From a virus: DNA of 64,000 nucleotides. Shown piece by piece: positions 10,695 through 46,640 of the stretch (position 1 is the stretch's first letter; each line of letters opens with the position of its first letter). The stretch lies in the IMG/VR virus record IMGVR_UViG_3300034158_000010, positions 1-64,000 of that record; one strand, given 5' to 3'. The position numbers and the translations under genes were made by a program. Below the pieces are notes generated by a model that was given only the letters and a program-made list of their open reading frames with translations, was not told where the DNA came from and searched no databases.

Positions 10695-11345
10695 ATGTCT
10701 TCTACTCAGATTGTAACCTGTCCCAACATGACCCTGATCATCAAACGCCTGACGGATTACACCGTTAAGCATTTGTCGGGGTTGTCGAACATTCCACACC
10801 TGTGCGTTAAAGTGCGTCATCAAAACGGCTTTGCATGGTTCGGGGTTAATGTTGTCGGTATTACCGATACCAGTCCGTGGTCCCGTCAGTTGGAGGAAAC
10901 CATCCTCAAGCTGTTCGTTGATGCAATGCAGAAGATCATCGACCTCGAAGCACTGGAGTCGGAGATCCCTCTGTTGTTGCGTTCCCTGCAAGATATCACT
11001 ACTGGCCGTAAGCGTCCGGTGATGTTCGGGGGTGACTCTAATGAGTTCATCCAGATCTGCTCGGACAACAACGTTCAGATCGAAGCTTACCGTAATGAGG
11101 TTAAGCAGGAATCCACTACCTACGGTGGTTACTTCATGACGGTTAGCGTTCGGGATAAGACCTATCCTGTGATGGTGTATCACCGTGGGATCATCCTCTA
11201 TAACTACATCGAGCGTGAGACCGTACTGGAACTGGTGCGTAACGAACTGTGCGGTAAGTTCCCTGAGGTCTTCCCGTACAACGAATCGACCTTCGACTTC
11301 TCCACCATCATGCAACTGCCCCGTAACCGTAGCAAGCGAGCGTAA
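10695..11345 (+). CDS. hypothetical protein
   Basis: 216 residues with an ACAAGGAATACCACA leader. Central helical region (about 60-110) between beta-rich ends. Two bases separate it from the next start. Function unknown. Confidence 0.6.
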   Translation: MSSTQIVTCPNMTLIIKRLTDYTVKHLSGLSNIPHLCVKVRHQNGFAWFGVNVVGITDTSPWSRQLEETILKLFVDAMQKIIDLEALESEIPLLLRSLQDITTGRKRPVMFGGDSNEFIQICSDNNVQIEAYRNEVKQESTTYGGYFMTVSVRDKTYPVMVYHRGIILYNYIERETVLELVRNELCGKFPEVFPYNESTFDFSTIMQLPRNRSKRA

Positions 11346-12582: not shown

Positions 12583-12599
12583 AAAGAATACTGTGAATG

Positions 12600-13073
12600 T
12601 AATTATATAGGAGCAAATGCTCCCGCATGATAAACGAGGTAGCTATTAGAGCAAGTTTATTATGCGACCCTCTTCTGGAACATAGCCACGGCTGTGATCT
12701 AAACGAACAGGGGTTCGCAGGGGCTATCTCTCTAACCAGGGTCCCCGTCACCATAAGCAATAGGTTAGATGCCTTGCTCGAACCCCGCCTAAGCATAACC
12801 TAACTTTCGGTATAAGTGAAGCGCTGCCACAACCGGCACGTCTTGTGAAGAACATAGTGACCATAATACCAATGGTCGAACCGAAGCGCTGTGCCCTTGA
12901 TTGGTACTCATTGGGATGGCGAAGTTATTAACGACATAACGATCGTGGATGCGGTCTTATTAGAAGATAGCGACTGGTGCGTGTGATGCTTCTGGAATAC
13001 TGGAAGCTACAGCTGGCCAGCACACAGGTACCAGATTAAACCCCAAGCCCCCTACCGTCTGGTGGGGGCTTTA
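12600..13073 (+). ncRNA. candidate large structured non-coding RNA
   Basis: About 470 bases with no credible gene on the plus strand but many paired segments. In order: GGAGC/GCTCC hairpin (12610-12623); a 12-bp helix 12624-12635 with 12655-12666, one pair G-U; a hairpin 12681-12696; GGGGTTCG with CGAACCCC (12710-12717/12779-12786), extended inward by five pairs and enclosing TCTAACC/GGTTAGA (12731-12737/12763-12769); AGCGCT/AGCGCT (12820-12825/12885-12890) enclosing CACAA/TTGTG and GACCAT/ATGGTC stems; TGGTAC/GTACCA (12902-12907/13028-13033) enclosing GTTAT/ATAAC and an 8-bp hairpin at 12988-13007. It ends in the terminator at 13045. It does not show the conserved motifs of tmRNA, RNase P RNA or 6S RNA that I know. 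The helices were found by eye. Confidence 0.5.
13045..13073 (+). terminator. intrinsic terminator
   Basis: AAGCCCCC pairs with GGGGGCTT, continued by ACC/GGT past a bulged T, loop GTCT, then TTTATTA. It closes the candidate RNA and precedes a new gene run. Confidence 0.85.
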
Positions 13074-13094
13074 TTACGTCTCAAGGAGTATTGC

Positions 13095-13295
13095 ATGCAA
13101 TTACGCGACGAGTTGTTTAAGCTGTATCAACCGGTGCAACACAACGCTAACCTGTTTGTACGCTGTAGACATCATCCGGTTCAATTGCGAATCGTAGCTA
13201 AAGCACGTTATGGCGTCTTACTCCGTAACGAACCAATTGGCGCGGCCAGTAAGTTTGCTACTGACCTTATCACATACCGCAACTACATTGACTAA
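13095..13295 (+). CDS. hypothetical small protein
   Basis: 66 residues from the ATG at 13095 with CAAGGAGTATTGC before it; the frame is open further upstream only through the terminator. Basic, no recognised domain. Confidence 0.55.
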   Translation: MQLRDELFKLYQPVQHNANLFVRCRHHPVQLRIVAKARYGVLLRNEPIGAASKFATDLITYRNYID

Positions 13296-23063: not shown

Positions 23064-23202
23064 TAAAACTGGTGGTCAGTACCTGGCTCTTAACAGGCTG
23101 CATGCAACTAAGACTGCCCCGACTCGTAAGCAGTGAAGGTTTGTTAAGACGGCATGGTCTTACATAGTATTACATAACCAGTATAGTTTTAATTTATACT
23201 GT

Positions 23203-27191: not shown

Positions 27192-27225
27192 TTTTTGTAT
27201 CCTAATTAGTCAAAGGGGAAATAAA

Positions 27226-27245
27226 GTCCTACCCGAAGGTAGGAC
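27226..27245 (-). terminator. terminator hairpin
   Basis: GTCCTACC/GGTAGGAC with CGAA loop, followed on the minus strand by TTTATTTCCCC. It lies about 115 bases after the ribonucleotide reductase beta stop; the stretch between shows no credible gene. Confidence 0.7.
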
Positions 27246-27360
27246 TCCATACACAAACCAACACTAAAGGAGAAACCACATCATGCAACCCACCAAGTCG
27301 CACATCATGGAGTAACTTCGGCAATCAGACTCAGTTACATACTATTACTTAAATGTATGC

Positions 27361-44978: not shown

Positions 44979-46640
44979 TTACGGACCACTACGCTGGAAG
45001 ACAGGAACTGCTGTGGTAGCCAGTTGCAGGTCAGAGTCGTAAAGCTCACGTACCCAATGGATGGTCAGAGACTCACCCGGATTAAGATCGTTGTTGACGC
45101 GCAGAGCGACGTTCCACTGTTCAACGCTGAACTTGTACGAGTTGTGCAGGAACTGGCAATAGAAGTGAGTAGGTTCTGGAGCGAACTCCTCAGTTTCCAA
45201 GTTAACCAATGGTTGTGCATTGTAGTACATACGTTGCAGCCATTGCGTCTTAGATTGTGCCCCGTTAGCAAGGCGCATGTCCCAGTTGTTGGTAGAGATG
45301 TAATCCATATCTGCAACCAACCCACGACCGTAAGATTCAATCTGGTCAGGACGAGGGAAGACTTCCCAACTAGCGCGTTGTTCACCACTGGTCAAGAGAG
45401 CAAGTTGGAACGTGCTCACGTAACGGAATGGTGCGAAACGACCGTCTACCTTATTCAGGTTAACAGCGTACGTCAGGGTTTGTACTTCACCGTAAGCCCG
45501 AGGACGATAAGCAGCCGAGTTAACACCTAGCTCTACATACGGAGTTACGTTGTAATACTGTTGACGATCTGCGTTGTACAGCCAGAACTCCAAGCGGTAA
45601 CCAATCTGTGCGTTGACCCACGAAGGGTAAGCAAACAGACGGCAGCTATATGCACCGTCAGCAGGGACAGTACGAGCGATGTAGTTCTCGGTGATAGCGC
45701 GATCAGCGGTTGGTACCAATGCATAACTAATCTCATCGGCAGCCAATTGATAACGCAGGGTGATCGGGAACTCTTGCCCTTCAGCGGTCGCTACGTAGTT
45801 CTCCAGACCCAACAAGGCCATTGGTGCAATACCAACATCCATACGGTTCTGCATGCCACCACGATACGATACAACGCCTTGCATCGGCAACGACTTAACC
45901 ATTACGTTCAATGGGAACTCGATTACCTTAGGATCGGACTGGGACAGGAATGGGGTATCAATAGCAATACCTTCAACATAACGCTTGGTCTGATCAGTCT
46001 GACGCAGGACTTGGGTATTCATGACCAGAAGCTGTGCATAACTCACAACACCTTCTTTGTCATCATACGCCACCAGTGTTACACGCTCACCATTAGCCAG
46101 ATCAGTTGAAGTGTTACCAACCATCGGAACCTTGATCGTTTGTACTGGTTGACCGTAGATGTCTGCTGTTTCAACTGGAATGAATGGACCCAAGAAGTTC
46201 CCCGAAGAATCGTAGAACGTCGAGATCATCTCACCTGTTTCATGGTTAATGTCACTACCACGGAATACAGCGTAACTTGCGACCATCGAACCGTAGAAGT
46301 GTAGGCGCTTATCTGGCGACAACACATACGGCGTAACCGACGTATCGATAAAGCAGCGATAGGACTCAGAGCTATAGCCTGGACCAACACCTACCAACAC
46401 GTTCTCTTCACCATCGGGGTCAGTGTGCGGTTTAGGTTCCCAGTCTTCGAAGGTAGGAACCCATGTACCTTCTTCTACGTCAACGACGCGTTCAAAACCT
46501 TTATCGTAGTCAACTACCAGGTCGTTAACGTTGGCTACCCAACGATCGGTCTGGTTAGCTGCCAACTTGATTTCAGTCTTGAGCCAAACCCGGAAACCTC
46601 GATCCGGGTTATAGAAGTTCGAGTTGTTGTAATCGGCCAT
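44979..46640 (-). CDS. virion structural protein
   Basis: 553 residues, rich in beta-strand patterns and Tyr/Asn/Pro, no enzyme motif. Three-gene minus operon next to the sheath, the same place where phiKZ-like genomes keep large virion proteins of unknown role. 3 bases after the upstream gene. Confidence 0.65.
   Translation of the reverse strand: MADYNNSNFYNPDRGFRVWLKTEIKLAANQTDRWVANVNDLVVDYDKGFERVVDVEEGTWVPTFEDWEPKPHTDPDGEENVLVGVGPGYSSESYRCFIDTSVTPYVLSPDKRLHFYGSMVASYAVFRGSDINHETGEMISTFYDSSGNFLGPFIPVETADIYGQPVQTIKVPMVGNTSTDLANGERVTLVAYDDKEGVVSYAQLLVMNTQVLRQTDQTKRYVEGIAIDTPFLSQSDPKVIEFPLNVMVKSLPMQGVVSYRGGMQNRMDVGIAPMALLGLENYVATAEGQEFPITLRYQLAADEISYALVPTADRAITENYIARTVPADGAYSCRLFAYPSWVNAQIGYRLEFWLYNADRQQYYNVTPYVELGVNSAAYRPRAYGEVQTLTYAVNLNKVDGRFAPFRYVSTFQLALLTSGEQRASWEVFPRPDQIESYGRGLVADMDYISTNNWDMRLANGAQSKTQWLQRMYYNAQPLVNLETEEFAPEPTHFYCQFLHNSYKFSVEQWNVALRVNNDLNPGESLTIHWVRELYDSDLQLATTAVPVFQRSGP

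Follow-up and report, generated by a model that had tools for sequence, protein, structure and literature searches.

A structured noncoding RNA with an ~80-nt core hairpin is conserved among phiKZ-related giant phages

Large structured RNAs of phages and prophages are known, among them GOLLD and ROOL, both of unknown function. GOLLD is often tRNA-linked, often exceeds 800 nt, and is conserved in its 3' region, and ROOL, ~660 nt in length and often encoded near tRNA islands, has several pseudoknots and forms a nanocage (PMC12286853). For phiKZ, Grad-seq revealed two ncRNAs, one from the 3' UTR of PHIKZ298 and one from the 5' UTR of p40, both confirmed by Northern blot; the authors noted that TSS mapping had predicted no ncRNA candidates (PMC8545117). 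A 2026 review gives the noncoding RNAs of phiKZ one sentence and one citation (PMC13282480).

We analyzed a gene-free stretch in a 64-kb window, the whole stretch of DNA considered here, which was taken from an IMG/VR record of 85 kb. Positions 12609–13072 of this window are a conserved noncoding structured RNA element, and we put the probability that the element is a conserved ncRNA gene at about 0.95. It is, like GOLLD, a large structured phage RNA, but family members measure ~110–480 nt (~460 bases for the window RNA) and are conserved in one ~80-nt core hairpin. The likeness to ROOL is that both are structured RNAs of phages, whereas the short forms of the present RNA are one hairpin plus a terminator. 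As with the Grad-seq ncRNAs, it is a noncoding RNA of the same phage group; unlike those UTR-derived molecules, it occupies a different locus, and neither of them is the RNA that lies between PHIKZ288 and PHIKZ289.

The nearest annotated relatives of the window are the Pseudomonas phages Viktualia, 201phi2-1, and Phabio, and its source is a Pseudomonas giant phage, kin of 201phi2-1 and phiKZ. The predicted transcript is 464 nt long (12609–13072, plus strand), with ends inferred from a promoter motif and a terminator. Two plus-strand genes flank it, both outside the RNA: upstream a homolog of phiKZ gp287 (10695–11345, assigned by homology), and downstream a gene of 66 aa (13095–13295) with its own Shine-Dalgarno sequence after the terminator.

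An earlier note on this DNA had proposed that the gene-free stretch folds as a large structured RNA, contains a 12-bp helix and an 8-bp helix extended by five more pairs, and ends in a terminator. All of these proposals were borne out. The plus strand of 12590–13075 folded at -168.8 kcal/mol (z = -3.97), with none of 100 dinucleotide shuffles as good, and the predicted transcript by itself gave z = -3.74; the minus strand was unremarkable against dinucleotide shuffles (z = -1.62). The 12-bp helix (12624–12635/12655–12666) and the extended 8-bp helix (12710–12722/12772–12786) both lie inside the covariation-supported structure, and the terminator at ~13045–13073 is kept in the homologs inspected. 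The minimum-energy fold of the window sequence alone partly mispairs the core; the covariation-supported core appears in most relatives' folds.

Among six full-length homologs, 109 pairs were counted, with standard pairs in 95.3% of cells and both sides changed in 32 pairs; the alignment was automatic, but the structure was predicted from that same alignment, and these counts, like those for the cores below, are not independent events since most sequences come from one phage clade. The covariation score was 0.316, compared with 0.184 for shuffled alignments, none of 500 reaching the observed value, and with a maximum of 0.084 for slid partners. Compensatory changes thus exceeded both the shuffled and the slid controls.

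The RNA opens directly after the promoter motif with hairpin P1 (GGAGC-AAAU-GCUCC, 12610–12623), in which 100% of cells are paired and two pairs have both sides changed. Hairpin P2 (12624–12666) is formed by the 12-bp helix and is supported by the sequence and by helices in homologs, and P3 (CAUAGC/GCUGUG, 12677–12699) has three pairs changed on both sides. The core hairpin (12710–12786), the family's universal part and the one that covariance models find, consists of P4a, P4b, an internal loop, P5, and an apical stem-loop. Its 8-nt internal loop GCUAUCUC (12723–12730), opposite UG (12770–12771), does not vary in length and hardly varies in sequence, and its apical 8-nt loop UCCCCGUC (12742–12749) has the family form U(N)CCCGUC. 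The 3' domain (12805–12886) is closed by a first long-range helix, UUUCGGU (12805–12811) with ACCGAAG (12880–12886), which is nearly invariant in full-length homologs and whose blocks are missing from short forms. A 3' terminal domain (12974–13034), placed from homolog helices, pairs CUGGU (12974–12978) with ACCAG (13030–13034) and encloses a conserved CUGGCCAG at 13013–13020; its strands are wholly different in PA1C and PhiPA3, yet complementary-looking by eye. The intrinsic terminator (13045–13073) was recognized in the sequence, and its helix is part of the six-homolog structure; a terminator-like hairpin ends the RNA in both long and short forms inspected.

Blast searches found the region in Viktualia and 201phi2-1 and a short piece of it in Phabio, and a 16-base core motif together with the downstream gene led to three more IMG/VR relatives. 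Two core covariance models (R2 and R3) were run on whole records and on loci; both were home-made, so that their E-values are rough. Whole-record searches with the first identified phiKZ, PhiPA3, and PA1C, a match in D6 lay in its syntenic region, and further contigs came from the model combined with a pattern scan. The second model added G008, G010, and G012 and confirmed other matches. Pattern matches in L006, L009, L010, and most of L130–L207 were dismissed as chance. In total, the ~80-nt core was found in at least 20 phiKZ-related giant-phage records, including phiKZ (263188–263256 of AF399011), PhiPA3, PA1C, Phabio, and D6. In 34 of 42 further jumbo-phage records, among them LucasX, DT01, Ea35-70, Moabite, EL, OBP, and FLC8, the core model gave no match, with the proviso that strict filters can miss weak matches in long records and some records are fragments.

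The position of the RNA is syntenic among phiKZ-related phages. In phiKZ the short form sits between PHIKZ288 and PHIKZ289 and was found beside the gp287 homolog. That homolog was present in nine of 16 searched records, exactly the RNA-bearing ones, and it also lies near the RNA in L147, L166, L173, L192, and L207; this co-occurrence may also be expected from shared descent. We considered the gp287 homolog as a partner of the RNA and rejected it: it could not be placed in any Pfam family at the cut-off, and its predicted model, of only moderate confidence, matched no fold in the PDB.

Long and short forms of the RNA differ in the material around the core. The long form also occurs in PA1C and PhiPA3, where CUUUCGG...CCGAAGC, GAAGUUA, and CUGGCCAG are retained in the same order. 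Core and terminator alone are present in phiKZ, PA7, Phabio, D6, and several contigs, and the long-form blocks are missing from L147. The conserved portion is mainly one ~80-nt core hairpin, with variable outer domains.

Sixteen core sequences were placed by hand on the shared structure, an alignment that leans towards that structure; on this basis 330 of 342 pair cells (96.5%) were standard pairs, with compensatory change at 21 of 24 positions. Exchanging the 3' strands among the 16 cores reduced pairing to a mean of 67% and a maximum of 76%. The six-homolog test is the more conservative support of the two. Across the 16 sequences the core helices are rewritten while loop lengths and letters stay: neither the internal loop (8 nt with AUCUC at its end and UG opposite) nor the octaloop U(N)CCCGUC changes in size, and most of their letters are retained. 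The exceptions are L013, in which the 3' side of the internal loop is a single G, and the base preceding CCCGUC in the octaloop, which can be C, U, or A.

The RNA did not resemble described classes. Against Rfam 15 (4227 models), the window had no match at the gathering threshold, and relaxed filters returned three sub-threshold, chance-like matches (best E = 0.12). The phiKZ and PA1C homologs had no Rfam match either. The earlier note had likewise remarked that no known RNA class motif was visible in the window's stretch. Self-splicing introns, RNase P, 6S RNA, riboswitches, and other described classes were without an Rfam match, and neither ARAGORN nor Rfam detected a tRNA or tmRNA in the RNA, the three tRNAs of the window all lying elsewhere. 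The core-hairpin RNA is undescribed in Rfam, in the annotations examined, and in the open-licence literature searched.

Neither the GOLLD nor the ROOL covariance model gave a cmscan match at gathering or relaxed thresholds, and by covariance model the core-hairpin family is unrelated to both. These results bear on a scaffold role, in which the RNA would assemble with itself in the manner of GOLLD and ROOL. The length and heavy folding of this phage-encoded RNA and a promoter-like motif common to tRNA genes are compatible with such a role, and GOLLD and ROOL are themselves phage RNAs often located near tRNA islands (PMC12286853). However, short forms of ~110–140 nt retain the core hairpin and terminator only, and Rfam indicated no similarity to either class, which makes RNA-only assembly quite improbable.

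We also considered whether the region encodes a small protein. In Viktualia, hypothetical-protein CDSs are annotated across the RNA (L002 3988–4269 and 4349–4438), and one 107-aa open frame is present there. In 201phi2-1, the annotated start of gp425 falls inside the RNA (L003 4346). However, open frames are not the same across homologs, only 10 of 171 indel runs have a length divisible by three, and base pairs are kept. With neither a conserved frame nor indels in threes, a small protein gene is extremely improbable; the Viktualia CDSs over the RNA are probably spurious and the gp425 start is probably misannotated. The earlier suggestion of a large structured phage RNA, possibly of a new class, passed each of the note's refuting checks that was run and is supported by the fold, the covariation, the absence of an Rfam family, and this noncoding pattern.

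A promoter-like motif, ATACT-GTGAA-TGTAATTATAT (12588–12609, plus strand), was identified by pattern directly upstream, with a predicted +1 at A12609 placed by reference to the phiKZ late consensus (-3)TATG(+1) (PMC7618050). Homologs carry a similar block immediately 5' of the RNA. We scanned for ATACTN{3,10}TGTAATNNTAT (the motif can also be written ATACT-N-TGTAATNNTAT or ATACT-N-TGTAATNNTATR) and found 35 sites in 32 jumbo-phage records (19 in ten records and 16 in 22 more); the reversed motif had no site in the same 32 records. Nineteen of the 35 sites precede tRNA genes, six precede copies of the core-hairpin RNA, and eight precede other gene-free stretches, mostly with a terminator-like hairpin at the end, leaving one in the 5' region of PHIKZ054 and one in Ea35-70. 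Within the window, the motif with fewer than two mismatches occurs only at the RNA and at the tRNA-Tyr gene, the latter an exact copy (23164–23184, minus strand) upstream of a tRNA-Tyr/tRNA-Asn/tRNA-Trp cluster.

Late promoters of phiKZ have a TATG that overlaps +1 and no reported conservation farther upstream; its middle promoters have a weak AT-rich motif around -24 (PMC7598289, PMC7618050). The new motif shares the TAT of the late promoter, and the next base is mostly A or G (the phiKZ sites read TATG). It differs from the late promoter in having two additional blocks upstream, ATACT and TGTAAT, and in that the majority of its sites lie ahead of genes for tRNAs or other RNAs. Judged against these late and middle promoters, the new motif may represent a separate promoter type that serves stable RNAs. 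Predicted promoter and terminator are both present and conserved. Because the motif mainly precedes tRNA genes, this RNA, and other terminator-ended gene-free stretches, the RNA probably has a gene of its own, from which a phage RNA polymerase would make it as a stable RNA, with 12609–13072 as the predicted transcript.

The terminator directly precedes a Shine-Dalgarno sequence and a start codon, an arrangement expected of a leader or attenuator that acts in cis on the gene downstream. A cis role is nevertheless very unlikely because the downstream gene swaps between relatives while the RNA stays: the 66-aa gene follows it in some relatives only, and other genes do so in Viktualia, phiKZ, PA1C, PhiPA3, and D6. 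Most motif sites, moreover, belong to tRNA genes and not to leaders.

That the loops are fixed while the helices change freely suggests that a partner recognizes the core. We give about even odds to an RNA that acts in trans, presenting the constant loops of its core to a partner that would most likely be a phage or host protein. The helices, free in sequence, would hold two loops at fixed spacing for a specific partner: the 8x2 internal loop, with its AUCUC end and the UG opposite, and the U(N)CCCGUC octaloop. In the long form, the domains 5' and 3' of the core may add stability or extra contacts, and they can be lost. This reading is supported by the presence of nothing but core and terminator in phiKZ, Phabio, and D6, by the promoter-like motif shared mainly with tRNA genes, and by the change of downstream gene between relatives. 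A pseudoknot between the octaloop and the 3' domain was considered and rejected, as the long RNA contains no conserved sequence complementary to the octaloop; the octaloop therefore probably meets something outside the molecule.

The conserved core loops could instead base-pair with another RNA. As a trans-acting antisense RNA, the molecule would pair its octaloop UNCCCGUC, its AUCUC loop, or both with G-rich targets such as Shine-Dalgarno sequences or rRNA. CCCGUC is present in every core found, and E. coli 16S rRNA has two GACGGG sites, the GACGGGG at 922 being complementary to CCCCGUC of the window. However, chance alone predicts about one 6-base match in ~4.4 kb of rRNA, and the variable base before CCCGUC means that the pairing is not kept. 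For these reasons a protein partner is favored over pairing with a target RNA, which we consider unlikely.

Alternatively, the RNA could be a decoy that mimics a host RNA and neutralizes a host factor, for instance a defense or RNA-processing protein. CCCGUC of the octaloop is identical to positions 1402–1407 of 16S rRNA, and a precedent for phage RNA mimicry, PhiTE against ToxIN, has been reported (PMC3475682). The likeness to rRNA is nevertheless limited to 6 nt with flanks not conserved in the family, for which chance is enough, and Rfam contained no similar host RNA family, leaving a decoy rather unlikely. Among the 16S rRNA resemblances that we dismissed were CCCGTC at 1402 in the decoding strand, the GACGGGG complement at 922, and other short motifs, all of 6–7 nt and not extended family-wide.

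PhiKZ is a model nucleus-forming phage. This conserved RNA is nevertheless absent from the annotations examined, from Rfam, and from the phiKZ ncRNA survey (PMC8545117). The ~80-nt core is a short, defined element amenable to knock-down or pull-down in a laboratory model, and the promoter-like motif predicts more unannotated RNA genes; together, core and motif make a role of noncoding RNA in phage-nucleus biology directly testable. More speculatively, phiKZ-like nucleus-forming phages could run a stable-RNA regulon in which a phage RNA polymerase would recognize a single type of promoter driving tRNAs and several new structured RNAs. The core RNA, the most widespread of those found here, might be a component of a nucleus-linked RNP serving, for example, mRNA export, ribosome use, or shell function; one exact motif site lies in the 5' region of PHIKZ054, the phiKZ shell gene chmA (chimallin). 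We regard this broader scheme as rather improbable.

That site lies at 45469–45489 of AF399011 (L225, L241), in the 5' intergenic region of PHIKZ054, which has hairpin-like repeats; no terminator was seen between motif and gene.

Other candidate RNAs were noticed behind motif sites. On the minus strand of the window, a motif-like site with two mismatches is followed by a gene-free stretch of ~115 nt and a terminator (27224–27340); by eye it resembles stretches after exact motifs in G001 (51190, minus) and G002 (301876, plus), and it is probably another small noncoding RNA under the same motif. A third structured RNA candidate, ~300 nt, is conserved in D6 (L234, 20267, plus) and two metagenome phages (L253, G012 87591, minus; L266, G010 125707, plus), with apparent compensatory changes such as CCATCCGTATGGGATGG versus CCTCCCGTATGGGGAGG.

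Shortly after the gp287 homolog there is, separately, a conserved gene-free stretch with a boxA-like GCTCTTTAACAAT, seen in D6 (L052 6570–6350, minus), PA1C (L041 753–982), PhiPA3 (L042 855–1096), phiKZ (L017 22642–22782), and Phabio (L004 2604–2779). In L173 the boxA-like sequence is TGCTCTTTAACAATTTA, which is also the form present in the rrn leader of E. coli. In most cases a T-arm-like hairpin and a terminator come after the element, and the stretch may serve as a binding site for NusB/S10 or as a mimic of an rRNA leader.
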